Shown: in pieces, positions 1 to 33,201 of the stretch | Numbering within the stretch: the stretch's first letter is position 1 | How the letters are laid out: each line of letters begins with the position of its first letter | From: Porphyra umbilicalis | Lineage: Eukaryota > Rhodophyta > Bangiophyceae > Bangiales > Bangiaceae | DNA: 33,845 nucleotides | Direction of reading: 5' to 3' | NCBI GenBank assembly: GCA_002049455.2 | Contig: KV919277.1 | Span: 1-33,845 of the forward strand | Notes under the pieces: model-generated | What the model saw: only the letters and a program-made list of their open reading frames with translations | What the model was told of the DNA's origin: nothing | The model's database searches: none | Translations under genes and position numbers: made by a program

Positions 1-850
1 GCACCCAGATGAACACCTCCATGCCGGCCGTGACGTTCTGCAGCAGCGGCCGCTGCACAGAGCCGCCGAACAGCTGCGGCCCGATGGCTTCCCACAGCAG
101 CAGGTTCGGCTGCGGGTACAGCGAGCCGTTGGCGCGGTGCAGCTCGGCACCGATGCGCACCGCGTCAGGGGCCGCCGCAAACGGCGTGTCCGCCAGTGCC
201 ACTGTGGAGAAGGCCCACTCGAACTCGAAGAAGCCGCCTGGAACGTCTTCGTCTGCCTCCCAGTTGGCGTTGAACAGGTCAGTGTACGTCTGCTGGTCCA
301 GGTCGGGCCCAGAGATGCCGTCCTTCACCCGCGAGATGCTGGGCGGCGTCGCGTCCAGCCACACGCCGTTGCTGCAGGACACGTTGGAGGCCAGCCCCGC
401 GCCGTTCACAGCGGTGACGCACACCACTGCGTGCATGCCCTGCGTCATGCCCAGCGCATGCAGCGTGACGTTCTGCCGCGTGCCCACGCTGGTCCAGTCC
501 CGCACCACGACGCTGCTGTTCGCGTCGTGCACGCGCACCAGGAAGTCCGCGACCGCGGACTCGAAGTCAGCAAAGTCGGACCAGGACGCCTGCAGCGTGT
601 TGAAATCGGAGCTGTACTCCACGTCCGCTGCGTCCACCCCGCCAACGTCAGCGTCCGAGTCGCCGTTGTCCAGCGCCAGCCCGTCCACGACAAGGCCGGC
701 GCTGGGGGGCGTCCAGTCCACGCGGAACACGCGGGACACGGACAGCGCATCCTTCCCTGTCAGCGTGACGGCCTTGATGTCGATCTGGTAGTCCGCGCCA
801 AGCACCAGGGGCAGGTCGCCCCAGGAGCCGCTGAACTGCGCCTGGCCCTC
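1..850 (-). other. Terminal FN3-like repeats, continuing beyond the window
   Basis: After the Cys-rich motif the 'DxTPPxxGxVxDG' repeats resume (DWTPPSAGLVVDG near 690; DATPPSISRVKDG near 330). At least two units are present and the frame is open at position 1. The end of the protein, and any membrane anchor, are not visible. Confidence 0.65.
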
Positions 851-12800: not shown

Positions 12801-15800
12801 AGCCCGAACTGCACAAGGCTGATGTTGCTCATGGGCGCCGCCTCAACCACCTTGAACCGCATGTACACCTCGTCCGTGATGTTGGTCACCTGGAAGTCCC
12901 CGAACCGCACGTACTGACCAGAGATGCCGTCAAACACCTCCATGTCCAGCACCTCGGGGCCGCTGTTGTCGCAGATGAAGCGCGTCGCGATGCCGCTTTC
13001 CAGGCCCTCCACGTTGGCCGCCATCACGGAGCCGTAGATGGGCTTCTTCTCCCCGGGGCAGCTCACCAGCGTGAACGTGAAGGAGGAGATGTCTGTGCCC
13101 TCGTAGTACTCCCCTACGTCTTGCCGCATGGGCGCCGTGCCCAGCGCCACCGCGAAGTCCCGTACATAGTTCTCCTTGTCCTCAAACCCGCCCCACGCCG
13201 TCTCCACAGTGGTCGCGTCTGTCTGCGTGATCTCCAGGGTGGCGCTGCCCGTCAGTGGCGGCGTCTCGTCCGGCGGAAGGGTGCAGATGTCGAACAGCTC
13301 GGTCGAATGCCACTTGCTCCGAACGGGGCCCACTTCATCAGCCGCTTCTTTCGCTCCTTGCAGAAAGTGATGCGGCACCGAGGGAGCTTGATGCGAATGA
13401 ACCCAATCTTGATGCGGATGGGACAGCACGTGCACTTGATGCAGAACCTAAAAGCGTAGAATGCTTCCACTCTGATGTCTGGATACTTGAGAGCCACCTC
13501 CATCTTCAAGCACAGCCGGATGGCACCGCCAGGCGTGATGCCGAGGGACAGCGTGGGCACCACCGCCATGCTGAACAGGCGCACAACGGCCCGCACGCCG
13601 GCGTAGCCGATGCCAAACTCCAGCCGGACGCCAGCAGAGAAGAAGGGCGTGAAGGCAGGGACGACAGTGGCTGTCAGCAGCTTCTCTTCCAGCAGGAAGT
13701 TGATGATCAGGTCCACCTGCACGTCCACGCCGGCCTCAATCACGAGGAACAGCGGCACGATAGGCACGGGAATGGGAAACTTCAGGCTGAAGAACACGTA
13801 GCTCTGCGTCAGCAGGGTGCTTTCGCTGACGATGGCTTCGTCAAACTTGGGGTCCTGCGCGGACAGCCCCTCCACCTGCGTTTGCAGCGCCCTCCCGTGT
13901 GCCGGCGAGCCGCTAGGTGACTTCGTCACACGCCGGCTCGTGGCGGCAGCACGAGACACCAGCGGCACCGCCTTCCATGCCATGAGCGCCAGCGCGGGGT
14001 CATGCAGGTGCGCCGGGTGCACGCGCAGCTGGCGCCCGTCCGGGGCTTGCACCACCACCGGCGGCGCATGTGGGTCGTGCTCAGCGCCTGGCAACGTCGC
14101 GGCCAAGTGCCGGCCAACAGCAGCCAGGGGCGCTGACTCGGCATCCTCGCCCTGCGACAGCTGGCGGATGACGACTGGGGGCATTGCGCCTGCGCCGGCC
14201 AGGCGCCGGTTGAGACTGAACTTGGGCATATCTCGCACGCTCTTGCACAGGTCGTCGTCACAGGCAACAGGCACCGCGGCCCGATGTAGGAATACAAGTA
14301 GAACGGCGGTTTGTGCTGGCGCACCTTGAAGTACAGGATGTTCTCCACGATCTGCGGGTTCAGGTTGCGCACCGTGGGCAGCCCCAGCTTGTACGCCGCG
14401 TCGTCCGTCAGCGCGCCGATCTTCTGCACCTGCTCGAAGTGCTTGCTGTGCCCCGTGCTGGTGAGCACCATGAAGAACGTCACGTCTGTGCCGTCGTAGA
14501 AGGACAGCGACTCGAGTCCAGCAGGGGCGCGCATCCTCATGGTGGCCGTGCCCTTGTCCTGCGGCTGTGTGCCAGCGACGCCAGGGGCACCAGACTGTGC
14601 ACGCGCCTTGGGCTTGCGCCGGGCGCTGCTGCCCTGCGTGCCCTTTGAGCGGCGCTTCTTGGAGGACTCGCTCTCAGGGGCCGCCTGCAGCACCCACTGC
14701 CCCACCGTCAGCTGGTTGGTCTTGTCCAGACTCAGCAACGCAGAAGTAACGGAAGCGCTGGGCAGGGACAGCTGCTTGGAGCGGGAGGAGTCCAGCAGCT
14801 GGTGGAAGTCCAGCTCGCAGGAAGAGCCCTCGCGCCCGTACGTGCAGCGGCTGAGCACGATGTTCAGGAAGCCCAGTTGATTGAACAGGAACATGCCCTT
14901 CACCCGCGCTCCCGACTGCACGATCAGATTCGGCGCCAGCACAGTTTCCTCGTCCACGGTGTACTTCAGCCCACCCGCCAGCGTCAGCGCCTTGGGCATG
15001 CCGTCCAGGTCCAGGGAGTACCCGATGGTCCACCCCTTGTTGCAGTTGCGCCACTCGTTCTTGGCGTCTGGGCCGGATGTCTTGGAGCCAGTGCCGTAGG
15101 AGTATTGCCCAAAGGCGCCGTCACTGCACTTCCCCGTGTGCTGCCCGTTGACCTTGTGGTGGCTGGCAACATCCAGCGTGTACGTGTAGGGGCTGATCTC
15201 GGCTTCCTCGTCGGCAGTGCGGTTCAGCGGCGCCTCGCCATCGTCTGCAGCAGCAGTAGGCTCCGGCGGTGGCCGGCCAGAGCGCCTGGACCGAGTACCG
15301 CTGCGCTGCCCTGTTGTGGAGCCTGCAGTCTTGGCGCGGCCAGTCGACTCCAAGTCCCCAGGCTCGTAGTACTCGCCCACCCACAGGATGCCCTCCGCGT
15401 CGAAGGAGGTGCGGTCGTAGAACAGCTGGTTCGGCTTGGCGTCCACCCGGATCTTGTCGCTCGTGGCGGTCATGGCGCCCACGAGGGAGCCGTCTCCGAT
15501 CTGGTCCTCCAGGTCGCTCAGCTTGAAGGCCAGGATGTGGTTGTCGCGCAAGTCCGAGCCCAGCGCCCGCTTCTCTGTGTCCGCCAGGCTCAGGTCCCCC
15601 GCGTCGCTGCAGGTCCACAAGACGTCGTGGTCGCGGTCAATGGCCACATCAGCCGCGCTGCCGGTCCACGGGTTGCCGTCCTTGTCGAACAGCTCCACGA
15701 TCTTCATCACCTCCTCGTCGTCGTTCATGACCACAAGGATGCTGGGCTGCCCCTCGTTGTCCCCGATGCCGTGGTAGCTCATGATGAACCGCCGGTAGCT

Positions 15801-18800
15801 GAGCGCCTCAATGCCTGCGGCAGCCAGTCCTCGAACAGGCCCGGCACTGTGAATGTCCACTTGTCGCCCCTGCAGGGGTACCCGAAGATCTGACAGGAGC
15901 CAAAGGCGGGCGGGAAGTTCTGGTACCAGAAGTGCGTGTACTTGAGCGCCATGAAACCCTGGTAGATGCTGGACCGGCGCGGCACCACATGCAGGCACGG
16001 CACCCCTGGGTCGCAGGGTGGCTCCAGCGTGCTCGGGTCAACGACACCATTCGGTGTGCCTCGGCCCAGCAAGTCCCTGGCCTTGTTGCTGAACTCGTCC
16101 ACCTTGTCCACCACGTTCTCCAGCGTGTCGCGGAAGGGACGAATGAAGTCCAGCACGCTGGCCGCACCCTGCAGCACCGTCAGCGCGAACTTGGGGATGC
16201 GCAGGAACTTGTCGCGTGCCAGCAGCGCCAGCTGCCGCCCCAGGGTCTTGGCGAACTCCACCACCGCGTTCAGCTTGTCGATCACCACGGTGCGGAAGGT
16301 GATGAATGCCTTCAACGCGATGCGCACAGGCGTGAGCAGGAAGTGCGCCAGCTCCTCCAACCGCGCTGCAATCCACTTGCCGGGGTTGAAGTCCACTAGG
16401 AACTGCACCACGGTGCGAATGCCGCGCGAAATTGGGGACAGGAAGGAGGACACGCGGTGGATGATGTCCCGCGCGAGAGTGACCGCGTCCACCACAAAGT
16501 TGGCGAACTTCAGCGCGAAGCCCGAGACGGAGGCCAGGAAGGAGCGCAGGCTGGTGCGCCGCGGCAAGGGCGCGAGGGCGCGGGAGGCAGGCGGGGCCGC
16601 ATCCAGCGCAGTCATCAGCCGGCGCGTGCCAGCGCCAGGGTTGAACAGCAGCTGCACGTTGGTGACAATGTCTTGCCCCGACTGTACCAGCGAATCCCAC
16701 ACGTTGCGCACGCTGGACACGAGCGCCTTGCCCGATGTCTTCACCTCCTGCACAAATGCCAGCACGCCCTGGATGCCGGCGCCAAGCGCCGTGGTCTCGT
16801 CCAGGAAGTTGTCCAGCGTCAGCTGCAGCAGCTTCTTGATGCACACCGTGCCAGAGACGCACACCTGCAGGTCCAAGGATCCCACCAGCGCGGGCAGGCG
16901 CTCCTTCAGCAGCTGCAGCTGCTCCTTGTGCGTCTCCGTGTCTGCCAGCACGATGCGCGCGTTGCGTGCCGTGTCGAACAGCGTCAGCGCCGTGCCCACA
17001 GCGTCGCGGATCTGCAGAGGCACTGCCTTGACGGCCTCCATGATGGTCACAATGTCGCCCAGGATGTCTGCAATCGTGAACCGCACGTCCAGGAAGTCTG
17101 CGGCCGCCTGCGCCGTGTCCACCACGCCCTCCACCTTGCGGGCCATGTTGGCGATGAAGTCAAACACGCCCGACAGCTTGTTCAGCACAAAGGAGAGGAA
17201 CTTGGAGAACAGCTCGTTCAGGAAGGCCTGCCCCTTGTCCAACAGGTTGAGGATGGTGTCCGGCACGAAGTTCGCGAAGCGCACCGCCCACGTGCGCAGC
17301 TGCTCCACCCAGGAGCTCGCCAGCTCGCCCAAGCGGTCAATCAGGTTCTGCACCACCACACGCAGCGTCTCCATGATGCCGCCATTGTCCACGATCTTGG
17401 CTGCAAGCTTCTGGATCTGCGACGCAAAGCTCAGGATCTTCTTGGCCTGGGTGGCGATGTACACCAGCCCGCCGCCGCCATCCCGCATGAGCTTGCCCAC
17501 GGGGCCCGGGGTAGTCTGTCCCATGGCGCGCGTCGTCTGTCCCACTTGCAGCACAACCTCCACGATGGGTGCCGCCTTTCCGATCAGCGTCTCCGTCACG
17601 TTGGCCACCACCTCGATAATCTCGTCGGCTTTCTGCAGGAAGGGGCTGTCCCGCGTGAAGGCATCCACCTTGTCCAGGATCACGATGGACGCGTTGCTGA
17701 TCTTCTGCACGCCAATGTCCACGATGTCCTGCACCTTGTCCACCAGGCGGTTGGCCAGGTTCACCAGCGTCTCCCGCAGGTCCTCCACCACGTTGTCCAC
17801 CAGGTCCCGCGCGCGCTGGATCAAGTCCGCCACCCGCGGCTCCACCTCGGCGGTGATAAACTCCACGATCTTGTCGCTGTCCGTGAGCACGTCGAACACG
17901 GAGCGAGCAATGTCAATGTACGCGTTCATGCGCGTCTGCAGGCGCTCCATGGCGCTGCCCACCCTGTCGGACACGCTCTGCACGGACGTGATCCAACCTT
18001 TCAGCGTGGTCACCACTGGCTCCAGCAGCACCTCCAGCGTGTCCGCCGCCGTGATCAGGCTGGGCTCCAGCGACAGCACCACGTCAACGATAGCCAGCAG
18101 TGGCGCGGGTGTGGGGATGTTTGCCACCACACGGTCCAGCACGTCCTCTGCAGCCGCCACCACGCGGTCCTTCACAGACAGGATGCTGTCGCCCGCCGCC
18201 GCCACCAGCGCGTCCACTTCGTCCCGCGCCAGCGCCAGCTGCTCACTGGCGGGGGCCCCCGCAGCAGCCATCTGGGAAAGCTGCCCCAGGCGTGCATACG
18301 CCTCGGCCAGCGCGTCTGCGTCAACCAGCGTGGCAGCGCTGACATCTGCAGGCTTGGCAGCAACGCCAGTCAGCAGGGCAACGGCCAGCTCGTCCACAGG
18401 TGCCTGCAGGGAGGGTGCAGCTGTGGTCACCGCCGAGAATGTGGCCAGCAGCGTGCTGCGCAGAGCGGCGGCAGCTGCGGCGGCTGGCAGGGAGGGCAGC
18501 TGTTCGCCCTCCACTGCGTCCTCGCCGAATAGCACTTCCTGCAGCGTCGTAAGGGGGACAGCAAGGGCAGCAACTGCCGCTGCGTCGTCCTCGCTCAGCG
18601 ACGAAGCCAGTTCCTCGGATGCCACCAAGCTGTCGGCCACAGTAATGAGCGCCGCCTGAGAGGCGTCGGGGTCAGCCAGCAGCCCCTGCAGGCCATCCAC
18701 GGCCACGCCCGCCTCCGCGGCAGCGGCGGCTTGGACAGCCTCCGTCGCGCTGCGCAAGGCGGCGAAGGATGCCAGCGGGCTGATGCTCGTGTCCGTGATA

Positions 18801-21800
18801 CCCTGCAGCGCCACCAGCACGTCTGCTGCGCGCCCAGCTGCCGCCGCGTTCTCGCTCCATACAGTGGCTTGCCGCCCCACCAGCTCACGGGCCAGTGCCA
18901 GCGTGACGGCGCGCAGCTCGCCCTGCAGCGCCTCCAGAGCCTCAGTGCCAGCTGGCGCCTCCGTCACGATGTCAACGACGCCAGACAGGGAGCTGTCCAT
19001 GTCGGTGATGCCCTGCAGCGCCAGACGTGCCGCAGAGGAGGGCAGCGCGGCTAGCGGAAGCTCCGCGTCGGGCAGTGCCGCCACCAGGGAGGCTGCAGCG
19101 CTGGCCGCTGCGCTCAGGCGCACAGCGTCCACGTCAGCCGTCCCAGCCGCCATGATGGCCAGCTGGCCTCAGCACCCTGCGCCAACAGCCGCAGTGTCCC
19201 GCAGTCCACAGGCGCTTCCGAGCGGTGCGCACTCGCGCCCAGAGCCAGCGCAAGGGCGGCGTCAGACCCAGCGTCAGAAATGGCAGGCTCCACGCAGCAG
19301 TGGCCACGTCGCCAGCAGTGTTGGCTTCGCCCAGGGCAACAAACGGTGCCGCCAGGGCCTCGTTTCCGGCTGCACTGGCGGCCAGAGCCTGCGCCGTCAG
19401 CTCCGTCAGCGCGTCTGCCGGCGGCAGCGCCATGCCTTCCATGCCGTGCACCGCGCCCAGCGGCTCCGCAGCCGCCATGCGGTGCAGCAGCACCGCGCCC
19501 AGCGCTGCGTGCTCGTCTTCGCAAGCCGGCAGCATGCGAGGCAGCGCAGAGGCTGCCTCGGCCAGCGCATCCGCGCCCAGCTCGTCGCTGCCAGTGGTCT
19601 CCCGGGAATCCAGCACCGCACCCAGCCACGTGGCCAAGGCGTCCCCAGTGGCCTCGCTCGTCCACGCCGTGGCGTCTGCGGCGTCGCCGCCCAGAGCGAA
19701 CAGCACCGCAGGCGGCACGTCAGGCACCCCTGCAGGCGTGACGGCGGCTGCAGCCGCCTCAATCGCCCCCGCAGTCACGATAGTGGCAGTTGTGACCAGG
19801 TGCGCGCCAGCCGCGGCAGCAATGCTGCAGGCGCTGGCGCCCTCTGCAGTGGCCACGCCCACCATGCCCAGCGTGAAGGAGGCAGGCAGGATGCCGGCCA
19901 CAGTGTCCCGCATGGCCTGTACCTGCGCGTACCGGTCTGCCGCCACTCCAGCCGTGCGCTGCGCTGCCACAGCGTCGCGCTGCGCGGGCTCCGCGCCCGG
20001 CACATCGGCGAGGCACGTCTCGGCCTCGCCCGTGTACGTCACGAACGTGGCGGGGTCAGGCCCTGGCGCTGTCAGTGTGGGCTGGATAGCGAAACGCTGC
20101 CCGCACAGGGCGTTGCAGGCGCCCACGTCGGTGCAGGCAGCCGTCAACGCCAGCAGCTCGGCTGACGGCAAGGTGCGAATGGGCGCAGCGGTTTGCAGCA
20201 GGCGAGCGCCCTGCGACGCGGAGAAGTGCGCAGCGGCGCCCGTAGCGGCCACCAGCAGCGCGGACGCCTGTCCGCTGCCCTCCACGCCGCCCAGCGTCGC
20301 GGCTTCCAGCTCAGCAGTGAGCGTCGCGGACAGCTCCAGGGCGGCGTTGGCCAGCGCGAGGTCAGCCTGCGCCGAAGCCAGCACGCTGGAAGTCTGTGCC
20401 ACAGCGGACGCATCCAGAGTCAGCCGCTGCGCGGCCACTGCCAGCGCGCCCAGCGTGGCGCCCTCTTCCGGGAAGGCGTCCACGACAGCCGTCTCCAGGC
20501 CGTCGTACTCGGCGGCCAGCAGCCCCAGGATGACGTCGTTGGCAGCGCTCAGCGCAGAGACGCGGGCCCAGTGCTCCTCCGCCGCGAGGCACTGGCCCAG
20601 CTCGTACCGCAGCGCAGACACCGCATCGTCAGGCACGGCGCTGGTGCCGCGCAGGCCCTCAAGCGTGGCGCTGCAGAGCGCCGCAGCGCCAGAGGCGCCC
20701 ACGTCCAAGGCAGTCGCGTCCGCGACAGCGGCAGCCCAGGCTTCGCCGCCCTCCACCAGCACAGCAGTCAGCGGCGCGGCAGCTTCATCCACCAGTGCGG
20801 CTGCCGCAGCGATGGCGTCAGACTTGTCCCCTGTCACGCCCCCGGCCGCGACGAGCGCCTCCGTCAGCGATGCCACCGCCTCGCCCGCCACAGCAGTGGC
20901 GTCGATGCTGACCTGCAGCTCTGCGGCCAGGGCCACGGCCGCCTGACGGGCAGCAGGCAGCGTGGGCGGCATGCCCGTCTGCCACCAGCCCGCGGCGTCC
21001 GAGGCAGCAGCCGCCATGGCTGCGTGCGTCAGCGCCGCGCTGTCCGCCACGCCGGTCTGAGGCGCCGCGTCCTCTTGGTCCATCCAGGCACCCACAAGGG
21101 ACTGCGGCAGGCGCGCCACCCAGGAGGCGCTCAAGCTGTCCAGTTCCGTGAACTCACCAGCACAGGTGCACTGTGCGACCGCGGAGCGGAACGTCGCCAT
21201 GCCAGCAGCAAAGGCGGGCGCCCCCTCTGGCAGTGTGCCCAGGGCAGCCAGCGCCGTGGCCAGGGCCACGCGGCAGTGCGCGTCCGCGCAGTCGCCCAGC
21301 GAGCCCGCCGGGCGGTACACGGACCACACATCTGCCCCCTCCACAGCCGGCACGGCGGTGGCGTTCACAAAGCCGCCAACAAAGAATGGCGTGTTCTCAG
21401 GCAGCACGGCGCCCGCGGCGTCCAGCAGTCCGCTGGTGTCCCTCACGCCAGTCCAGTCCACGGTGGATGTGGCCACCTCGCCCAGCGCCACCAGCAGCGC
21501 GCCCAGCGCCGCGCTGCTGCGGGCGGCGGTGCGCCACTCTGGCTGCACTGCGTCCGGCCGCATTGCGTCCAGGGCGGCCATGGTGCTTGCTGCCGCCTCT
21601 GCAAAACAGCCGCCTCCCCGGCCTGCACGCCCCAGGGGCTGTTCAGCCCGCCCCACGCGACCAGCGCCTCCTGCATGGCGGCAGCGGCGTCCGCTGCCTC
21701 AGCGGCACCTCCCTCCAGGTCGGCCAGCAGGCTCGTGCCCGCGGCCAGGCTGCCCACGGAGATGGTGGCCTGCTGGCGGTGCCACAGGTCGCCCACGGGG

Positions 21801-24800
21801 CCGAAGAACGCCTCGCATGCTCCCGCACGGCAGCGGCAGGCCCCGGGCCAGACGCCCAGAACTCCACCACTGCCCGCGCTGTGTCTGGCAGGATGCCAGG
21901 CAGCGCTGCCGTCTGCTGCAGCAGCTGCGCAGCCGAGTTCGCGCCCAGCTCCGCCAGGCAGGTCGCGCTAGCAGCGGCGCTGGCTGCAAACACAGCCGCG
22001 CCGTGGGCCTGCACGTGCCGCGTCAGGCGGCGAGACAGCGTTCCCTGCACGTCCTCTGCGGCGCAGCTGGGGGCGCCGCCGGCACGAGTCGCCAGGAATG
22101 ACGCCGCGTGGTCCGCCAGCGTCTCAAGATGTGCCGCTGTCGTGGGGTTGGTCACGGGCGGCGTGCCGATGACGCCACCGCAGGGCAGGGAGCCCACAGA
22201 GGTGTCCAGCCAGTCCACAACGCCAGCAGCGGGCGCCACTGCGTCCAGAGCCGCCAGCAGAATGTCGCTGGCGTCCAGTTGCAGCGACACTGGCACCACC
22301 GTGCCGTTCGGGTGCGTTGCCTCGAATGCCACAGGCACAGCGCCCGCTGCAATGCTGCGCAGCCAGGCGGGCAGCACGCTGCCGTCAGACACGCCGTCCA
22401 GGCTGCCCACAGTGGCAGCGTGCCGGCAGACGCCCTCCGGCAGCGCGATACGCGTGGCGCACACGCCGGCATCACAGGTCTCATCGGGCACCAGAACTGC
22501 GCGCAGCGGCGCGTCCGTCCAGTGCCGCACGTGGGCGCCAGCAACTGCCCACGCCCCGTCCACGCCAGCGCAGTCCTCCCAGCCCTCCACGTCGCCCAGT
22601 GCCAAGAAAGCGCCCAGCGGCAGCTGCAGGAAGGCGCTCAAGTCCACGCGAGCAGAGGGCGCGGGCACGCCCTGCAGCGCAGCGGCAGCAGCCTCAGCGG
22701 CGCACAGCGCTGTCGCGTACTCGTCAGAAGTGCTCGCGCCAGCGCCGCCTGCCTCTTGCAGCGGCTCGGCTGCCTCTGCCACGACTGCGACGGCGTCCAG
22801 CGTGGCCAACGTGCGAGCCAGGGGCACGGACCCAATCACAGTGCCCGCCCGCACGGGGCTGGCGCTCGTGTCCGCCTTCAGTGCAGCCGCCAGCGCCGCC
22901 ATGTCGGGCGCTGCCGCAGCTGCGCCCGGCATGGCGGCGTGGGGCAGAACGATGGAGTCGCTCAGGTGCTCCACGGCCCACTCTGCGGCCGCAAAGTGCG
23001 CCGCGGGCAGCGCCTGCATGACGTAGGACACGCCCACCACCGACTCCATGCTGCTCACTGCTGCGCCCGCGGCAGCCAGCAGCGCCTGCTGCAGCGCCAG
23101 GTTCACGGCGTGCGTGGCGCAGTTGTCGCAGTTCACCAGGGCAGACGCGACAGATGTGCTGAGCACGCTGCTGGCTGCGCCAGTGCCGTCCACAAACGCC
23201 TGCAGCGCCGCCATCTGGGACGCCACACCGTTGGCGCCCGCGGGGTGCGCCACCGCCAGTTCCATGGCAGCCTGCGCCGCGGGCATGGCCACCTCGTGCA
23301 TGCGCAGCCACAGCGCGGTGCCCTGCGCGGCAGCCAGCACGGCGTTCACAGAGTCCCGCTCAAACGCCCAGTTCACGTCGCCCAGCGCCTGCAGCGCGGT
23401 CCACTGAGACAGCAGCCCATTGCCCAGGTCATCGGCGCCCACCCCCGGCGCCAGCGCCTCCAGCGCCACGGTCAACGGGTGCGGCACGCCGGCGTCGGAA
23501 GAGGACGCCACGATCCACTGCAGCGCAGCACGGGCCGCGGCGCTGAAGGTCAGCGCCGGCACGCCGTCGATGCTGCTGGCAGCGACTGCAGCAGGGATGG
23601 CCACCCAGGCCAGCACGACGTGCTGCCCCTCGGCCACACCAAACGCGGCGCCAGTCAGTGCGTACTGCGCCGCAGAGAGCACCTCTGGGCACAGCAGCGA
23701 GGCGCCGCAAACAGCCTCGTCGATAGCGTTCACTTCGGCGGCAGCGGCAGCCAGCAAGGCAGGGGAGCCCTGCGCCGCGGCCTGCAGCGGACCAGCAGAC
23801 ACCTGTGGGATGAGCACTTCCTCGGCCCACGCACAGGCCACCTCCTTGGCGCCGCGCATGACGGGGTAGGCCGCCACCACGGCGGCAAACTCCTGCGCCT
23901 CCACGCGGTCTTCGCACTCCAGGCTCGCCTCCACGGGGTGCAGGTCCACCTCTGTGAGCCCGGGGAGCCGTAGTCTACAGTCGCGGCCTCACCATCCTTG
24001 TACACGCGCTCGCAGGCGCGGTCGTCAGGGGAGAACGCTGTCACCAGCCGCAGCCGCTCGGTGGTGGTGGTCAGCAGCTCGCACGTGTCTGCGCGCGGCG
24101 CAGAGGCCGCCGCCTCCATGGCGCTCAGCGCCGCAGTCACGGCCTGGGCCGCGTCTGTCGTGTTGAAGGCGGCGTTGCGGGCAAGCCAGCCCGCAGACGC
24201 CGCCAACGTCGCCTCCGCCATGTCGTTCCGCACAGGCAGGGCGTCTGCCGCCTGCAGCACGGAGTGCACTGCGGCACTCACGAAGTGCGCCTGCTGCACG
24301 GCGATGGCGCTCACGGCGGGCATGCCGGCGCCAGCTCCCGCCAGCGCCACCCGCATGTCCACGGCAGGCAGGGCTGACACGCCTTCCAGCGCGCCCAGCG
24401 CGGCAGAGCTCTGCAGCAGGAACTCCCGCGCCAGCGCGTACTGGCTGGGCGGACGCAGCGTGGAGGATGCCAGCGGCATGTTGGCAGCCAGCACACTGGC
24501 TACAGCGCCAATGTGCCCCGCAGGCCCGCTGCAGGAGGCGCTGTCGCGGCACAGCACGGAGGCCGCGATCAGGCGCGCCAGGGTGTCAGCAGTGGCCGCC
24601 GGGTCCGCCGCGAACAGACTGCTCACGGCGTGCACGGGCCACTGCGCCGCCTGCAGCGCCTCGCCCGCGCTGCTGCGAGAGGACAGGCGGCTCGTGGCCA
24701 GCACCGCCGCAAACGCGTGCGCAGAGGTGAGCGCCCCCTGCGCGGCGGGCAGGAACTCCGCGCCGCAGGAGGCGCAGGGGGAGGGCGTCGTCAGCGCCGC

Positions 24801-27800
24801 GAACAGCTCCTCTGCAGGCCCGCGCTTGCCGTCCAGCGCGTCGTACACCGCAGGTGCCACGGCGGGGTGCGCCGCGTGCGCTGCAGCCGCCAGGGCCGCA
24901 GGCACCGCTGCGACCTTGTCTGTGAACGCCCGCACCTGGCCCGCACCCTGGCTGCGGATGCTGAACAGCGCGTAGCCCTCGTCGCAGCTGCCGGTGCAGG
25001 GGAACGCAGAGTTGGCGGCAGCGCGGGCGTCCGTCACCGCGGAGCACGCCGCGGTCAGTGCCGCCGTCATGGGGGCGTGCCCTGCCGGCAGCCCCGAGTT
25101 GGCCACGCCTCGGAAGCGGTCGCTGACCAGCTCGTTCAGCGCAGTGCAGGACTCGTCCAGCGCCTGCAGGTGCTGCCGCAGCCCGCCGGCGCTGAGCTGT
25201 GCCACGACACCGGTCACCGCGTCGGGCAGGCGCTCCTTGGCCAGCTTGCTCAGCACCTCGGCCGCCCAGGTTGGCATGGAGGTGGGCAGCGGCCGGACGG
25301 GGGAGCCGTCGATGGCCCGCATGGCCGCGGCGTCGGGGATGGAGGCCAGGCCACGCTCCAGCGCGCCCATGGCAGACAGACGCACCAGGTGCAGCTCGCT
25401 GTCCAGGTTGGGCAGCGTCGCGGGCATGCCCAGCTGCCCCGCCCTGTCACCCAGCACCACGCCGCGCACCCAGTCGGGCAGCGTGCTGTCGTTGTGCGCC
25501 AAGGGCAGCGTGTAGGACACGCCGTCGGGCACCACACCGCTGCCCAGCAGGTACGCAGCAGCCACCACGTCCCCGGATGCCAGCGTGCCCTGCGCCGTGC
25601 TCGCGGCGGCGTCAGCGTGCCCCGCCACGGCTGTGGCCAGCACAGAGCCGGGCGCCACGCCCAGCACTGCGCCAGGCATGCGCTGCAGGTGCAGGCGCGC
25701 CGCCGTCTGGGAAGCGGCGGCGTCTGCAGAGCCCGCGCCCAGGGTGCTGGCGGCAGCCAGCACGCCCTGCTGCTGTGCAAGGCTGCCGCTGCCCAGCAGC
25801 TCCTCCGCGATGTCAACGGCCACCAAATAGGGGAATGCAGTCTCCACTGCGGTCAGCAGGGCGTTGCTCGTCAGCACCACGTCGCTGAGCGGCGTGGCCA
25901 GGTCTGGCTCGCCAGACAGCACCGGCAGCAAGGGGTCGGCGCCGACGGCCCGCAGTCCCTGCGCGTACAGCGCCGGCAGGGCGCCGTCGCTGGCGATGTC
26001 CGCCAGGTCCCCGCTCCAGTCTGCAGGTGCAGACGCAGCGGCCCGCGCAAACGTCGCTGCGGCCTCCAGCGCGTCGGTGGGATGCAGCACGCCGGCGGCA
26101 GCCAGCCCTGCGGGCAGTGGCAGCACAGTCGGGCCCGGGCCTGCAGCCCCCGCCACGTGCGCCTCGCCTGCAGCGTTCAGCGCGAAGGCGTACGCGAACG
26201 CAGCATCTGCAGCGGGCTCTCCGAAACTGCTCCAGGTCGCGGGCATGGCGGTCGCCGCGGACTGGGCCGCGACGTCGTCCAGGGTCAGCTGCGCCGACGC
26301 GGCATCGTACGCCAGCGGCGCGCCAAAGTCGTCAGAGCAGGGGAATGCAGCCAGGACCGGCTCCAGGCCCGCGGAGAGCGCCTCCAGCTCAGCCACGCCG
26401 ACGGAGGCGTTCACCCAGGTGGAGCTGGCGCCTTGCAGCGGCGCAAGGGCGGCAGTCCACGCCCACGCGGCGTCTGCCAGCTGCAGCGCAGAGGCCGCCA
26501 CGTTGGCGTGCGCCCCCGACGCGCTCTGTCCCGCGCAGGCGGTGGCCGCGGCCTGCGCCGCCGCCAGGTCTGCCGCCAGGGTGGTGCAGCTGGAGGACTG
26601 TGCGCAGGTGCGCGCAGTCTGCGCCGCAGCGCGGGCTGCGCTGCAGGCCGTGCCAGCGGCGGAGATGTCACTGGCAGTCTGCGCGTCCAGCTGCGCGGCC
26701 GCAGCCGCCATGCCCGCCGCTAGGGCAGAGTGGCCAGCCTGCCCCCCCGCAGCGCTGGGCGGCACCCAGCGGCTCGTGTCAGAGGCAACGCTGCTGGCGT
26801 GCCAGGACAGCGTGCTCATGCTGGAGCCCAGCGCCGTCAGGGCCGTCAGTGCGTCCAGCGTGGCGTTGATGGCGACTCCGGCAGGCGCAGGCGCCGCGCT
26901 GCCAGGGCAGCGGTACGGGCCGCCTCCCAGGGCCCCGCCAGAGCAGCCAGGTTGGCGGACCGGAACGCTGTGGAGCGCTCCTCCTGGCAGGCGGTGGTGA
27001 CGCCCAACACTGTCAGGGCGGGCGCCAGCACGGGGGCGCTCTCCTCAGACATGACAGCCCAGGCGTCAAACGTGGAGCACAGCTCCTCGCCGCCCAGCTC
27101 CAGCGCCGCGGCGGCCCTGCGCACATCCAGGCACGCCAGGCCCTGCAGCACATCTGTGGGCACTGCCTCGCAGCGCAAGTTCGCTGTGTGGGACGCAGTG
27201 GCGTTGGGCAGCAGGGCAAACGGCAGCGCCATGCCCGCAGCTGTGGGGCCAGTCGTGGCCAGCGCCCGCAGGGAGGCCGTGGCGGCGTCCACCACCGTGT
27301 TGAGCGGCTGCCACGCGGCGGCCATGGCGGTCAGAGGGCCCGCGTCCGCGGTCGCAGTCATGTTCACAATGGCGGGCACGGAGTAGAAGGCCACGGGGCG
27401 CCAGGGGACGAAGTCTTCGGGCAGAGAGTTGATGGCCGCCAGGGGCGCCGCGTCCCGCAGGTGCGCCGTCCACTCCGGCGCCAGCGAGTTCAGCCTTGAC
27501 AGCGCCGCGGCACCAAGTGTGCCAGTGCCGTCTGCCAGCGCCAGGGCAGCGGGCGCGGGCAGCCGCGCCAGCTGCGCCACCGCAGGCACCACTTCGGCGT
27601 GCAGGCGCAGGTGCTCCTCCAGCACGCTCATCTGCCACACCCAGTGCACCATCATGACGTCGTCGTCGGTGAGGCGCAGCCCATCCGGGGGCCACGAGTC
27701 CACGGCCCCACCCACCAGGATCTCCAGGTAGAAGCAGCCGAAGCGGCTGGCCAGGTGCAGCTCCATGGCCTTGCAGGCCAGGAAAGTGCTGGCGCCGCCG

Positions 27801-30800
27801 GAGCCCGAGGCCAGCCCCTGCGCGCACGCAATGGCGGCGTGCTGCACCGCGGGGTTGTCTACGAACAGCTCCACGGCGCACTCCTGCAGGGGCTGCGAGA
27901 TGTTGGCGTCCAGGGAGGAGTTGTCCAGGGCCGCGTACCGCACGGCGCCCCACAGGAACTCCGCCACGTCCACCTCGGGCGCCTGCGCCGGGAACAGCTG
28001 CGCCATGAGGGGGCCCACGGCTGCCGTTGCGTTCTGCAGCGCGTCCAGCAGCTCATCGTGCCGCACGGGGTCAGAGGTCAGCACCACCCCCTGCTCCGTC
28101 TCGGGGCGCAGCATGCGCGTGCTCTCCAGGGCTGCGCCTGCCAGGCGCAGCTGCAGCACCAGGCGTCGGCAGACGAGGGAGGTGCACACGCCCTCCACAG
28201 CGTCCGCGGTGCGCCTGGGCAGCATGTTCAGCGCCAGCAGCGTGGATGGCCCGGAGTCCCCGTCCACGATGTCATCCAAGTCCTTCACCAGCTGCAGCTG
28301 GCTGGAGGTGCCGAACGTCGCGCCCACAGCACGCCCAGCCAGGTCTGCTGCCGCAGTGGCCAGGGGCACCGTCTCATTGCGCCCGTTCAGCAGATCGTTC
28401 ACGCCAGACACGGTCGTGTTCACTGCGGCCGAAGGCACGGAGGCCGCCGCCGCGACCCACTGCGCCGCAGCACGCTCCAGAGCACCGTTCATGCGCGCAG
28501 CCTCGAACGAAAGGCCGGCAGCAGGGTTGGCCCACTCGAAGGCGCCCGTGGCCCAGTGCTTGGCGACTGCGACAGCGCGGTCAGCGGTGGCAGTCAGCCG
28601 CGCCGACAGGTCTGCGCCCTCCTCCACCAGTTCCGCCACAGCCGTGATTGCGTGCTCGCCAGCTGCGGCGCGCGGACCGCACGCCGCGCTGGGCAGCTGG
28701 AACAGGTGCGCCGCGCTCTTGGCGGCAGCTAGTGGGGGTGCCAGCGAGGCGGCCACAGCCGTGTCGCGCGCGCCCTGCGCGGTCCGCCACGCCTGCAGCG
28801 CCGCAGCCACGACGTGCGCGCCCAGGGCGCCCCGCGCAGCCACGAGGGCATCAGCTGCCGCTTGCGCCGCAGTGCCCATGGCGGCCGCATCGCCGGCGCT
28901 AGCGGAAGCCACAGCTGTGCCGTTCAGGGCGGCCTGCAGCTCGGCCGCGGCGCTGTGCAGGCGCCGGCTCAAGCGCTCCGTGCTGATGGCGCTCAGACCA
29001 CCCAGCACGTCCGCTGCCAGTGCGTCCGCCTGCGCCGCAAAGGACTCCACGGCAGCGCCCATGTCGTCCAGCGCTCCGAAGAAGGCGTCCTGCGGCACGG
29101 AGGTGCCACTGAGCGCCGCCAGCAGCGTGCTCTCCCAGACGCCCGCGGGCAGTGCGCCACCCGGCAGCGCGCCGTCCTCCAGCAGCGCCGCCTGCAGCGC
29201 CGCCAGCGTGGCGGCAAACGCTGGCGTGAAGCGGGCCGTGATGTCCGCCGCCAGGGCGGCACTGGGGTTGCCAGCGATCTCTTCTGCAGAGCCCTGCTGC
29301 AGCGCCACGGCGTGGCCTGTGAGCTCCGCGGACTGCACGTCCAGCTCCGCGCCCAGCGCCTCAAACGCGCCCGCGTACTCGTCCAGGGCGCCGTCCCCGG
29401 CGCCGTTGAGGGCGTCCAGTGCAGCAGACACGTCGTCATCCAGCACGGCGGACAGGGAGGCCGCGAAGGAGTCCAGCAGGGAGTCCGACCCGCTGAGCAC
29501 GCCGTGCACCAGCTTCACGGCATTCCGGATCAGCGTCGCGTTGGTCACCAGGTCGTCCGAGAACTGCTGCCCCTGCAGGATCACGCCGTCCACCACGTCC
29601 AGCACGTCGATGACTTGCTCGCCGTAGCCCTTGAACTGCCCGTACCAGTCGTCCAGGCGGTCCAGGTACTCCTGGATGCTCTCGATCACGGGGGGGTCCG
29701 CCAGGTACTCCAGCCGCGTCTGCACCCAGCCCAGCCGCTCGTCCACGGCGTCGATGAAGTCCTGCACCTTCAGGAAGTCCAGCGCCTGCTCCATGTACCC
29801 GTCCACAAAGGCCAGGAAGCCCTCTGTGTCCTCTAGGAACGCGATGAACTCCGTCACCTTCTCGATGTACCCCTGCAGCGTCTCGTCGATGAGGTCGAAG
29901 AAGGAGATGCCCTTGCGCACCAGCGCCACGCCCTGGTCCACGATGCCCAGCAGCCGCTCCGCAATGGTCTTGATGCTGGTGATCAGGTTGTCTGCGAACG
30001 CGTTGAAGCGGTCCAGCATGTCCCGCGGCACCAGCCCCAGGGAGGAGAACCCCAGGTTCAACGCCGCCTTTACGTCCACGAATTTCAGCTCGAAGCGCAG
30101 GATGTAGGCTGACACGCGGGCCGTGTTGAACACGTCCAGCTCGAACAGGGCGCCGAACAGGGACAGGTCCAGCTCCACGCTGTTGCGCAGCTTGAAGCCC
30201 AGGTAGGCGCCGATGTAGGTGGAGCCCAGCAGGTACTCCGCCCCGTCGTCGTTGCCCAGCTTGAAGTAGATCTTGGTGTTGGAAGGGGACAGAACCTCGA
30301 TAATGCGGTCCCAAATGCTCGCCAGGCTGCGGCGCCCCGTGGCCAGCTCTCGCGCCGCGCCGCGCGCGTGCCCCCAGGCGCCCGCGCTGGGCACCAGCGC
30401 CGTCGCCTGTGCGCTGGCCGCTGCCTGCAGTTCTGCACCCAGCGTGTCCTCCCGCTGCGTGATGGCGCCAGAGGGCGCCGGCAAGTGCTTCGCCAGCACC
30501 CGCGCCGCGCCCTGCAGCTTGGCCTGATCGTGGGTGCAAGACAGCGTGCACTGCCGCTCGCAGCGCGCCGCGTCGCGCTCCACGCAGGGCGCGGCGCACA
30601 GGTCCACACAGTTGTCCCAGTCCCGCATGGCGCCCGCGTCCAGCAGCACCGCCAGCGCCGCCAGCGTGCGCTTGCTGACGGCGCCCACCGGCATGGCCTC
30701 CAGCGCCGCCAGCGCCGAGGCCACCTCCGTGGGATCCGTCTCCTCGTCCAGCAGCAGCCGTCGCATGTGCGCCTCCACGCGCACCGCCGCCGCGGGCCAC

Positions 30801-33201
30801 GAGTCCAGCACGCTCATGGCGTGGGAGCGCAGGGAGCGCCGGGGGTGCTCCAGGAACGCCAGCACGCGGCCCTCCCGCCCCGGGGCGCGCATGTTCCCGT
30901 ACGCGTGCAACAGCGTCACCAGCCCGCCTGCGCCGAAGCCCGCCTGCGCCGCGGCCGCCGCCACCTGCTCCAGCGGCACGTCCGCGTCGTGCGCGGCGCG
31001 CGCCTCCTCCACGGGACTGCGCTGGGACGCGCGGCGCAGGAAGTGCCCCGTCTCCGCCGCCGTCTGCGGCGCGGCCCGGAAGGCTGCCAGCTTCTCCTCC
31101 ACGCAGGCGCCCAGGGACAGCGTGGCCAGCAGGCGCGGGCTGCTGCCTGCGGGCAGGGACACGTTGCGCCAGGTGCCGGGCTGCCCCGCCAGGGCCGCCT
31201 CGCACACGGCGTGGGCGGCCTCCGCCAGCCCCGCCTCCCGCAGCGCCTCGTCGTCCGCCAGCTTCAGCTCGGCAGCCACGGCCTCGCGCAGCTCCCCGCG
31301 CCAGGCGACGCGCTCCGCGGGCGTGGCGTGCTCCCACGCCTCCGCCGCGGCGTGCGGCGAGTTCCAGTGCCGCATGCCCATGATCCAGGAGTGCAGGTCG
31401 CTGTGCGACAGGCGCTCCAGCGCGGCGTCCGCCGCCGCCGTGTACTTGCTCCACGCCGCGTCCGTGTGCGCGTGCAGCGTGGACACCACGGCCCACTCGT
31501 CGTCCAGAGCGCCCAGGATGCGCCGGTGCAGCGCGTGGGAGGGCGCGAACTTGGAGCCCATGGCACCCGCCGCCAGCAGCAGGCGGGAGCGGTGATACCA
31601 GTCGAAGGCCTCGCGGTCCAGCGCCGCCAGCAGGCGACGCACGGCGTCCTCGCTGGGCTCCTGCACCTGCATCAGCGCCAGCGCCAGGTGGTTCACGCCC
31701 TCGTCCCCGGAGCCGTCCATGAAGACGCGGTGCTCCAGCAGCCGCAGCAGCGCGTCCTGCGCTGCCTCGTCGCCCAGCGTGGCAACGCCCGCCATCAGCG
31801 AGTGCGCCACGCCGCCGGGCAGCGCCAGCATGGCGCGCCCGTCCACCACCAGCGTCAGCGCCTCGTTGCGCAGGGGCGCGTGCAGGCGCATGGCCAGGGG
31901 GAAGTACGTGGCGCACTGCGCGGCGCCCATGTACCCGTCCCCGCCCCCGTTGGCGTGCGCGGCCGTGGGCGGCGGCCCCCGGGGGTCTGCCTCCCGGGAA
32001 CCCGCCAGTGCGAAGCAGTCCAGGTAGAAAGACAGGTCGATGTCCCCCCGCAGCACGCCGTCGATGTGGGGCTGCGCCCCGTTGGGCACAACCAGCTCGG
32101 GGTCTCCAAATTCCGCGGGTAGCCCCACCTCGCGCAGCGCCACGGCGTGCGCCTCAGGGAAGCCCACCGCGTGCAGACGCCGCGCCCCGAGGCGGCCGCC
32201 ACCATCTTGCACCGCCAGGATGGGCTCCGCCAGCGCCTCCAGGTACTCCTCCGGCACGGCGTGCATGGCGCGGCTCAGTGGTGCCGCCGCCACGCCGGCG
32301 TCGGAATGCAGCAGGTGCGCCTCCACCGTCATGCGCCAGGGGCGCAGGAACTCCGGGCTCTGCCCAGGCGTGGGCATGCTGTGCTGCCGCCAGTCACTCT
32401 GGTGCGGCCGCTCGCCTTGGTGGTGCTCTTGCGCCGCCTCGTGCAGCGTGCCGCCGCCCAGCACGCGCGCGTGCGCGTGCGTGAGCACCCATCCCGCCTG
32501 GGTGCGCACCAGGGTGCTGCTCACGTTCTTCTCCAGCAGAAGCCCCTCTGCGTGCTGCGGCAGGCTGCCTGGCAGTAGCCGCCGGTGCAGCGCCACGCCG
32601 CCCTCAGCGCCACGCGCCGCCGTGTACGCCCACGCGCCCGCGCCGGCGTCACAAGCCTCCTCCGCGTGCCACGCGTCCTCCACGGCATGCCGCCCAGCCG
32701 CCTGGGACGGCGGGAACAGCAGCGCGGCCATGCTCCTCTTCCTGCGTGCGGGGCGGGGTAGTGCGTGCTTGAGTGACGGCGCGAAACGCCGCACGCGCGG
32801 CGCACGCACATGTTGACGCTAGGCAGCGCTTCGTCAGCGGGCACCAGCATGGAGTGCACCTCGCCGTGCAGCAGCAGGGCAGGGGCAGGGTCAGGCGTGG
32901 CGTCCTCGGGCAAGTCGCCGCCGACCCTGATCCAAACTCCGCCGTTCCGCCGCTTGACAGGGGCGCAGTCTGACACGTGCAGCGCCTTTGATGGGCCCAC
33001 AACGGGATCCAGTACGTTCTCCTCCGCATGAGCGCTCACAGGGACCACGCCGACGCGGCAGGTGATGCCAAAGTCCGTGGACGCTGAGCCGCCGCTGGCG
33101 CCGTCCCGCCCGTACTTGGCCGTGAGCTGGTACACCTCTGCGCCGCGCACAGCCGGCGTCAGGCAAGCGGCCAGAGCCAGTAGGGCGTACACCGTCCTCA
33201 T
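1..33201 (-). CDS. Giant secreted multidomain protein with N-terminal vitellogenin/LLTP-type lipid-transfer module (3' end outside window)
   Basis: This single gene fills the window and continues past position 1; roughly 11,040 codons are visible. The start is the ATG at 33201. It is the first in-frame ATG, has A at -3, and opens a signal peptide. The order of parts is LLTP-like module (residues about 21-860), Cys cluster, hydrophobic beta block (about 940-1035), helical and Ala-rich region (about 1035-5690), beta-propeller-like domain (about 5690-6280), second beta block (about 6440-6590), about 29 Ig/FN3-like repeats (about 6615-10310), FG-GAP propeller (about 10330-10730) and further FN3-like repeats. 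One intron is secure (32742-32809). Twelve further -1 frame transitions are listed separately; most look like single missing bases. The first 5.3 kb of the window is one uninterrupted frame with no stop. Known LLTPs (apoB, MTP, vitellogenin, apolipophorin) carry lipid in secreted particles; that role is inference here. A chain of adjacent separate genes is the alternative, but no frame ends in a stop between coherent domains. Confidence 0.8.
857..934 (-). other. Small Cys-rich motif after the FG-GAP propeller
   Basis: The pattern C-x2-C-P-x-G-x(10)-C-x2-C-x4-C lies between the propeller and the next FN3-like repeat. It resembles the short 'C-x2-C-x2-G-x-S' motifs of EGF-like/ephrin-receptor-like (GCC2/GCC3) repeats. 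A single copy is seen. Confidence 0.5.
950..2150 (-). other. FG-GAP/integrin-type beta-propeller
   Basis: About 400 residues carry repeated glycine-rich blades. The clearest are GSQLGAAVAARHDDGGDTLF followed by AVGAPG (about 1291-1368), which fits the FG-GAP pattern 'G-x-x-[LV]-x-x-x-x-D-x-[DN]-GD-x-x-x-[LV]-x-V-GAP', and LLLAGAPSALTWQGAAG followed by AVY (about 1000-1065). Weaker blades lie at about 1750-1800 and 1980-2080. FG-GAP propellers of integrin alpha chains bind ligands and cations. The single strong blade keeps the Asp-rich loop. Confidence 0.6.
2253..2545 (-). other. Dense cluster of N-glycosylation sequons
   Basis: About eight N-x-[ST] sequons (NAS, NVT, NAS, NLT, NAT, NST, NDT, NDT) occur within roughly 95 residues just before the FG-GAP propeller. 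This is far denser than elsewhere in the protein and suggests a glycan-shielded hinge. Confidence 0.6.
5322..5330 (-). other. Frame break L (-1)
   Basis: Upstream ..VPGVAYRVRA joins RLVDALGRSAVRELPG with one base missing in GGGCC|GGCT. The joined text restores the 'Y-x-V-x-A-x-x-x-x-x-G' strand of an FN3-like repeat. Confidence 0.65.
8178..8184 (-). other. Frame break K (-1)
   Basis: Upstream ..GGFFLAEVT joins GVPLYDGASVLAVVSTTNG with one base missing at ACG|GCGTG. The join lies inside a single FN3-like repeat, so a gene end here is unlikely. Confidence 0.65.
12263..12269 (-). other. Frame break J (-1) in a seven-base homopolymer
   Basis: The run of seven C (plus strand) needs to be eight for ..SIISRNAGG to continue as VHAESFSNGFVVDATH within one FN3-like repeat. 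This is the clearest homopolymer undercall in the window. Confidence 0.75.
13324..13329 (-). other. Frame break I (-1) in a C run
   Basis: Upstream ..KKRLMKWAP joins VRSKWHSTELFDICTLPP if the four-C run were five C. The join leads directly into the first FN3-like repeat. Confidence 0.65.
13360..13815 (-). other. Second hydrophobic beta-sheet block with cysteine cluster
   Basis: About 150 residues are strongly hydrophobic and strand-like (YVFFSLKFPIPVPIVPLFLV, VDVQVDLIINFLL, GVRLEFGIGYAGVRAVVRLF, AIRLCLKMEVALKY). They end in basic Cys-containing strands (FCIKCTCCPIRIKIGFIRI, RCRITFCKERKKR). No segment is a clean transmembrane helix, because Pro, Gly and charged residues break every run. A lipid-contacting beta sheet like that of apoB-type proteins is the best reading. 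The preceding 150 residues (13815-14270) are a low-complexity linker with one C-x5-C loop. Confidence 0.5.
14276..14282 (-). other. Frame break H (-1)
   Basis: Upstream ..PPFYLYSYIGP joins AVPVACDDDLCKSV with one base missing at GGGCC|GCGG. An 83-nt GT-AG intron (donor GTGCGC after ILYFK) is a phase-compatible alternative, but it would remove protein-like sequence. Confidence 0.55.
15282..15293 (-). other. Candidate furin-type cleavage site RSRR in a propeller insertion
   Basis: The sequence T-R-S-R-R-S-G fits the proprotein-convertase consensus R-x-[KR]-R. It sits in a Ser/Thr/Pro/Gly-rich, presumably exposed linker. Insect vitellogenins and apolipophorins are cleaved at such sites; cleavage here is inference. 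Confidence 0.4.
15815..15822 (-). other. Frame break G (-1)
   Basis: Upstream ..TVPGLFEDWLP joins AGIEALSYRRFIMSYHG, the first propeller strand, with one base missing at CTGCC|GCAGG. No GT donor is close enough for an in-phase intron. Confidence 0.7.
16060..18240 (-). other. Amphipathic helical region 2 (apolipoprotein-like)
   Basis: About 720 residues of long amphipathic helices, less Ala-rich and richer in Val, Ile, Phe, Lys and Asp than the preceding stretch (for example DRVVAAAEDVLDRVV, RVADLIQRARDLVDNVVEDL, LVDKVQDIVDIGVQKI, DTLENVVDKVDEFSNKARDL). Aromatic-rich helices (for example FLNELFSKFLSFVLNKL) suggest membrane or lipid-surface contact. One C-x5-C loop lies near 16855. It resembles lipid-binding helical regions of apolipoproteins in style only; no homology can be claimed by eye. 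Confidence 0.6.
19162..19170 (-). other. Frame break F (-1)
   Basis: Upstream ..LRLLAQGAE joins QLAIMAAGTADVDAV in the next frame with one base missing in GAGGCC|AGC. No GT-AG pair of reasonable length explains it. Confidence 0.6.
19279..19285 (-). other. Frame break E (-1)
   Basis: Upstream ..ATAAWSLP joins AISDAGSDAALALALG in the next frame with one base missing at CTGCC|ATT. The new frame is used for only about 115 nt before break F. Confidence 0.6.
21597..21603 (-). other. Frame break D (-1)
   Basis: Upstream ..QAGEAAVLQ is followed in the next frame by EAAASTMAALDAM. One base is missing at TTTTGCA|GAGG. The CTGTTTTGCAG just before it looks like a splice acceptor, but no donor gives the right phase with that exact AG. 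Confidence 0.55.
21812..21817 (-). other. Frame break C (-1)
   Basis: The upstream frame ..PAAAVREHA continues as EAFFGPVGDLWHRQQ in the next frame if one base is missing at CATGC|GAGG. Only a 17-nt or a 56/59-nt GT-AG excision would be an alternative. Confidence 0.6.
23952..23992 (-). other. Candidate 41-nt intron (or a single-base frame break)
   Basis: Donor GTGAGG and acceptor GGCTCACAG fit well. Splicing joins ..Y-K-D to E-V-D-L-H-P in frame. Within it several codons end in A or T (GGT, ACT, GTA), unlike the surrounding coding sequence. The alternative is one missing base near 23953, which would also give a coherent reading. Confidence 0.55.
26876..26884 (-). other. Frame break A (-1)
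   Basis: The upstream frame reads ..ALAARRLRL and meets a stop soon after; the next frame reads GVAINATLDALTAL. One base missing at CTGCC|GGAG joins them smoothly. A 62-nt GT-AG intron at 26899-26960 is possible, but its donor (GTCCGC) is weak and it would remove helix-like coding sequence. Confidence 0.6.
29430..30030 (-). other. Amphipathic helical region 1
   Basis: About 200 residues of long charged amphipathic helices (for example DMLDRFNAFADNLITSIKT, IDETLQGYIEKVTEFIAFLE, VIESIQEYLDRLDDWYGQF) follow the first beta block. The pattern of hydrophobic i, i+3/i+4 positions with Glu/Asp/Lys on the other face is like exchangeable apolipoproteins. It could also be plain coiled coil. Confidence 0.6.
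30030..30320 (-). other. First hydrophobic beta-sheet block
   Basis: About 95 residues of alternating polar and hydrophobic positions suggest six or seven beta strands (for example KIYFKLG, TYIGAYLGFKL, VELDLSLFGALFELDVF, ARVSAYILRFELKF). It lies where LLTPs carry their lipid-binding beta sheets, just after the helical superhelix. A lipid-facing amphipathic sheet is inferred from this position and pattern. Confidence 0.55.
30536..30610 (-). other. Six-cysteine cluster after the superhelix
   Basis: Six cysteines occur in 25 residues with spacing C-x3-C-x3-C-x7-C-x3-C-x3-C. They follow the last helical pair directly and precede an Ala-rich linker to the beta block. The symmetric spacing suggests a helical hairpin held by disulfides. 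I do not recognise a named family. Confidence 0.7.
30620..31820 (-). other. Vitellinogen-type helical superhelix
   Basis: Residues about 440-840 are a series of paired helices typical of the vitellogenin/MTP superhelical domain. Features include 'SLMAGVATLGDEAA' (family: AL...G...), a long helix ending in a Pro-rich turn, 'RLLLAAGAMGSK' (family: LALGSLV.K), and near the end 'LLHAYGNMRAPGREG' followed by 'RSLRSHAMSVLDSW'. The last pair matches the family's 'ALGN.g....' and 'vR.aA..AL' turns. A general HEAT/ARM solenoid is the alternative, but the barrel upstream favours an LLTP module. Confidence 0.68.
31820..33141 (-). other. LLTP/vitellogenin N-terminal beta-barrel-like domain
   Basis: This covers residues about 21-440, interrupted by intron 1. 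Mature sequence begins with strand-like EVYQLTAKYG. Before the intron a 'G-E-V-H-S-M' strand and an acidic segment lead to S-V-N-M. After splicing the text is N-M-K-R-S-M-A-A-L-L, which matches the N-[IL]-K-R-G-[IL] segment that follows the 'G-x-V' strand in vitellogenin and MTP N-domains. An E-x-A-C-D-A-G-x-x-A-Y segment follows, like the family's 'E-x-D-V-x-G-x-C-x-T-x-Y'. In known family members this barrel contacts partners or receptors and begins the lipid cavity. The assignment rests on motif order and not on an alignment search. The boundary with the helical part is approximate. Confidence 0.68.
32742..32809 (-). other. Intron 1 (68 nt, GT-AG)
   Basis: Donor GTGCGTG follows ..AACAT and acceptor CACGCAG precedes GAAGAGGAGC. 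A C-rich tract lies before the acceptor. Splicing joins frames in phase 2 and creates N-M-K-R-S-M, the expected LLTP motif at this point. This is the best supported intron in the window. Confidence 0.85.
33142..33201 (-). other. Signal peptide of the giant protein
   Basis: The first 20 residues read MRTVYALLALAACLTPAVRG. This is a short basic start, a Leu/Ala hydrophobic core and a small-residue A-x-x-G end, followed by mature sequence starting AEVYQL. It predicts entry into the secretory pathway. The exact cleavage site is inferred. Confidence 0.8.

Follow-up and report, generated by a model that had tools for sequence, protein, structure and literature searches.

The closest described systems to the gene discussed here are the large lipid transfer proteins (LLTPs: microsomal triglyceride transfer protein or MTP, apolipoprotein B or apoB, and vitellogenin), which to our knowledge are regarded as an animal family; apoB has amphipathic helix domains and beta belts. 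We analyzed a window of 33,845 nucleotides, contig C517 (KV919277.1) of the Porphyra umbilicalis assembly GCA_002049455.2 (83.8 Mb, 665 contigs). On its minus strand, starting with an ATG at position 33201, lies a gene for a giant protein whose N-terminal part (the head) had been proposed in a sequence-only reading to be a lipid-transfer module of this type. Because several weak, partly independent signals in its barrel agree in place, we lean towards regarding the head as a divergent LLTP-like module, a reading which is plausible, if unproven. A non-animal LLTP was not reported in any literature title among the matches listed, and PMC4219131 merely cites an LLTP study. The elements on which the comparison with known LLTPs depends are the following.

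32810..33201, minus strand: exon 1 (392 bases, residues 1-130), which holds the ATG, the putative signal peptide and the start of the barrel-like domain
about 33142-33201, minus strand: putative signal peptide, a hydrophobic leader judged by eye, without a predictor
32742..32809, minus strand: GT-AG intron of 68 bp, similar by eye in donor and acceptor style to the introns of another contig of the assembly, C643
32711..32865, minus strand: core motif G-E-V ... N-M-K-R-S-M-A-A-L-L (residues 113-140) in the barrel-like domain, interrupted by the intron
1..32741, minus strand: exon 2, a giant open reading with ten one-base frame slips, running past the contig end

With the MTP large subunit (PDB 6i7s_G), the head shared an ungapped stretch of 48 residues, 29% identical, which surrounds H-G-x-V ... 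N-x-K-R and has the corresponding position in the barrel. However, the MTP chain has 884 residues, its Cys residues are at +27 and +47, and its remaining barrel and helices could not be aligned with the head. Similarly, apoB-100 (PDB 9bd1_A) resembled the protein in its giant size, in N-x-K-R at the same spacing, in a Cys at +31 and in amphipathic helix clusters after the head. It differed in that the best local score of the head lay within those of shuffled sequences (276 of 1,000), and in that fn3-like repeats and an Ala-rich tract occupy the place where apoB has its beta belts. Lamprey lipovitellin (PDB 1lsh_A) shared the Tyr-Asn spacing and the +31 Cys, whereas its barrel match was not above shuffles.

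Splicing of the intron rebuilt N-M-K-R, an instance of the N-x-K-R motif, across the exon junction. All strings cited in the sequence-only reading (GEV, NMKRSM, EEAC, SLMAGVATLG, LLLAAGAMGSK and LLHAYGN) were found in the spliced reading in the order given, with GEV from residue 113, NMKRSM from residue 130 and EEAC containing Cys161. The distance from the first barrel Tyr to the motif Asn was 106 residues, compared with 101, 103 and 113 in the three LLTPs. This placed the head within the spacing for G-x-V ... N-x-K/V-R, a distance of about 100-113 residues from the first barrel Tyr that was set by these three LLTPs only. A Cys was present at exactly +31 from the motif Asn, as in lipovitellin and apoB. 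Because HMMER filters mask weak matches and LLTPs are highly divergent, the head (residues 21-180) was scored directly against the lipovitellin, apoB and MTP barrels, using 2,000 shuffles as the null; human MTP as a single query against PDB found neither apoB nor lipovitellin among its matches at E<=1. The score against the MTP barrel was 53, which was equalled by one of the 2,000 shuffles; as a yardstick, the apoB barrel scored 54 against that of MTP. None of 1,296 decoys (160-residue pieces from six-frame open reading frames of the window and 66 loci) reached this score, the highest being 46, and the outcome was unchanged when three pieces of the head were included (1,299 decoys). In a scan of the whole giant protein in 272 windows, both the top MTP place and the top apoB place fell within the N-terminal 180 residues. 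Also, a barrel-only LLTP profile ranked the head first, and in register, among 1,034 sequences, one of which was a decoy containing a piece of the head; the next sequence scored 1.3 bits. The barrel strings exceed chance, and their register, the Tyr-Asn spacing, the +31 Cys and the top MTP and apoB places are in keeping with an LLTP barrel, which supports the proposed LPD_N/Vitellogenin_N arrangement in part.

Other results weigh against an LLTP identity of the head. Within the barrel, the score against apoB was 38, equalled by 45 of 2,000 shuffles and 6 of 1,296 decoys, which is weak when taken alone. The score against lipovitellin was 29, equalled by 634 shuffles and 218 decoys and thus no match, and the four best lipovitellin places in the 272-window scan lay outside the N-terminus. 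The barrel-only profile gave the head just 4.1 bits (E 1.9), end-free global alignment placed none of the three LLTP barrels in register, and the second Cys of the LLTP pair, at +57 in lipovitellin and apoB, was missing, the first 300 residues containing just four Cys, one of them within the leader. The match to PF01347 (Vitellogenin_N) that the sequence-only reading had looked to did not appear: hmmscan of stretches of 1,105, 1,990, 243 and 498 residues gave none at E<=10, and hence no significant one. Since this formal profile test failed, the head was not assigned to Vitellogenin_N. PDB sequence searches of the head found no match, a three-LLTP profile over barrel and helices gave it -1.1 bits, which placed it fifth, behind four shuffles, in a set made up of the query, 300 shuffles and the reversed query, and hhalign returned a probability of 0.8%. 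Searches of the head against Pfam and NCBIfam gave nothing useful. No PF01347 match was found in six frames of the assembly, where the control likewise gave no match anywhere. A tblastn search against plasmids found nothing. Homolog searches with three length ranges, which scored the 7,996, 447 and 7,989 candidates with most shared words in a database of unchecked species coverage, recovered only P0001, a protein model from the same contig.

The part of the head that follows the barrel was examined in a predicted structure covering residues 380-1041 only, which was made without relatives and lies outside the intron-split barrel. Overall confidence was low (pLDDT 47.6, pTM 0.31). The features of this part are as follows.

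31496..31933, minus strand: alpha-alpha solenoid, predicted with moderate confidence (residues 400-545)
30341..31495, minus strand: further predicted helices, low confidence (residues 546-930)
30026..30298, minus strand: strand-like stretch seen by eye, without Pfam match (residues 945-1035)

The fold matches of the predicted solenoid were generic HEAT-like repeats, and such alpha-alpha solenoids (for example 7cun_G and 6iur_B) share a general arrangement that is unspecific as evidence. No LLTP chain was present among the best 50 matches listed in each of two fold searches, which excludes nothing. When the 900-residue head was compared as a whole, its best local score was equalled by 349 of 1,000 shuffles for lipovitellin, 276 for apoB and 12 for MTP, and the best MTP stretch was the barrel motif, not the helices. 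Thus, judged by sequence comparison, the superhelix strings did not exceed chance. A long second and third beta-sheet were not seen by eye. With regard to C- and A-sheets that would line a lipid cavity, the short stretch at residues 945-1035 was the only strand-like one, and the low-confidence model had no strands there. The generic solenoid and the absence of profile and PDB matches suit another explanation: the product would be a protist's giant surface or matrix protein that carries an ordinary HEAT-like solenoid close to its N-terminus, and the LLTP likeness of the first 180 residues would be due to chance. The fn3-like C-terminal part points the same way, as does the occurrence in sister contig C643 of parts of another giant extracellular protein (TIG, Kelch, near-cut-off LNR and TRP-type). 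On the other side, motif, register, Tyr spacing and the +31 Cys all fall together at the N-terminus, immediately behind the leader, and the helix clusters described below are strongly amphipathic. We regard a chance likeness as rather doubtful, while giving it serious weight.

The LLTP-like head would belong to a very long chain. From 32741, exon 2 is open in a single frame as far as 26849, and ten frame changes follow, each of them immediate, with a one-base shift and no spacer; eight are of one kind.

near 26876, 23957, 21676, 19168, 15827, 14282, 13354, 12268, 8178 and 5323, minus strand: one-base frame slips

The total in-frame reading was 11,001 residues, with no stop inside the pieces and the frame still open at the contig end, so the more than 10,000 further residues claimed for this protein were indeed found. 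Codon bias was common to all 11 segments (CTG 0.73-0.90 of Leu, GTG 0.73-0.86 of Val). The ten changes of frame, together with fn3-like and Ala-rich parts that are unlike the head, might suggest several separate genes joined into one. This is very improbable, as coding continues at each change with a one-base shift and no spacer, and the codon bias is similar throughout; because of these same two features we read the slips as assembly indels within one gene. The database model P0001 (Porphyra umbilicalis BU14_0797s0003, 587 residues) matched the head for 126 residues, starting at residue 135, beyond which it ran in a different frame and is thus mis-framed.

Beyond the head, three regions were distinguished.

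29441..30025, minus strand: amphipathic helix cluster 1 (about residues 1036-1230)
15980..18091, minus strand: amphipathic helix cluster 2 (from residue 5000 to about residue 5720 when the in-frame pieces are concatenated)
3..13339, minus strand: fn3-like extracellular repeat region, with PF00041 and D-x-T-x-P-type matches

Both helix clusters were strongly amphipathic by helix moment, and cluster 2 contained, at about 17720-17980, an Apolipoprotein A1/A4/E match that stayed below threshold; the PF01442 (exchangeable apolipoproteins) scores of 24.9 and 24.2 bits were below the curated cut-off of 90. In the repeat region, PF00041 matched in two frames, with 24.1 bits (E 4.3e-5) and 22.6 bits (E 1.2e-4), both below the cut-off of 25, and ten D-x-T-x-P-type matches were found, the first eight spaced 107-159 residues apart. 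An fn3 search of the own genome gave no match even inside this window, which indicates that the search is insensitive here. Three further minus-strand stretches showed no Pfam or other family match. The first, 18100-29440 (about 3,700 residues), is mostly Ala-rich and probably helical, without a family match in the scanned frames. The second, 13360-14268, is hydrophobic and strand-like with a Cys-rich end and has no Pfam match in the scanned part. The third, 14285-15824, is of lower GC, has a beta-propeller look by eye and is without a Pfam match.

These features suggest how the protein might work if its head is LLTP-like. The gene product would be a giant secreted or surface protein, the first few hundred residues of which may form a very divergent LLTP barrel-plus-superhelix module. 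The leader, as its sequence suggests, would bring the chain into the endoplasmic reticulum. A barrel-like domain with the N-x-K-R helix, followed by a helical solenoid, would make up the head, as weak sequence evidence and the partial model indicate. Lipid could be taken up near the head and then held, in the manner of apoB, by the downstream amphipathic helix clusters, to judge from the helix moment and from apolipoprotein matches below threshold. A role as spacer or extracellular scaffold may fall to the long Ala-rich and fn3-like parts. The lipid function of the protein is inferred. We propose tentatively, as a possibility that falls short of our preferred one, that a GC-rich protist or alga has a non-animal LLTP head which, combined with a chain of more than 11,000 residues and apoB-like helix clusters, represents an independent giant lipoprotein-like carrier. 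If true, the presence of an LLTP head in a eukaryote distant from animals would mean that lipoprotein machinery is older than animals or that the gene was transferred, and it would offer a very large single-chain lipid carrier for study.

The owner of the gene would be a GC-rich eukaryote whose DNA entered the Porphyra umbilicalis assembly; the sequence-only reading had likewise named a GC-rich eukaryote, and this holds. The dinucleotide distance between the window and 18 first stretches was 0.19-0.30, compared with 0.08 on average and 0.186 at most among those 18. For 4-kb pieces, the distance from the window was at least 0.17 for 58 pieces of 24 contigs and at most 0.093 within the window. 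The signature differed from 63 of 64 sampled contigs; the sole match was C643 (0.07-0.11), the nearest contig after it was at 0.15, and 2.5-kb pieces of the window itself lay at 0.05-0.10. Codon use of the remaining assembly was taken from 18 to 24 sampled contigs, with real and spurious frames mixed. The window had a CTG share of 0.86 and a GTG share of 0.84, whereas frames from 18 other contigs had 0.31 and 0.42, and in 305 frames taken from 24 contigs the top CTG share (at least 25 Leu) was 0.79, there with a GTG share of 0.25. In C643 the bias was like that of the window (CTG 0.73-0.88 and GTG 0.82-0.93 in four frames), and look-alike introns (GTGCG..., ...CCGCAG) showed by eye that it also shares the intron style. 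That P0001 carries a Porphyra umbilicalis name and that the window belongs to that assembly would fit a genuine red algal gene of odd composition. We consider this unlikely in view of the distances and codon shares just given, and of a single contig in 64, C643, having the same signature, codon bias and intron style. Because composition, codon bias and intron style are common to the window and C643, and the composition is unlike that of 63 of 64 sampled contigs, both probably come from one foreign eukaryote contaminating the assembly. Even if the head is not an LLTP, the contig suggests foreign eukaryote genes within the Porphyra umbilicalis reference. C643 itself (loci L045 944-4999, L043 2-1609 and L046 3308-4999) encodes parts of giant extracellular proteins bearing TIG and Kelch repeats, an LNR just under the cut-off and a TRP-type membrane domain, and it also has an EF-hand-like gene, apparently with short introns.
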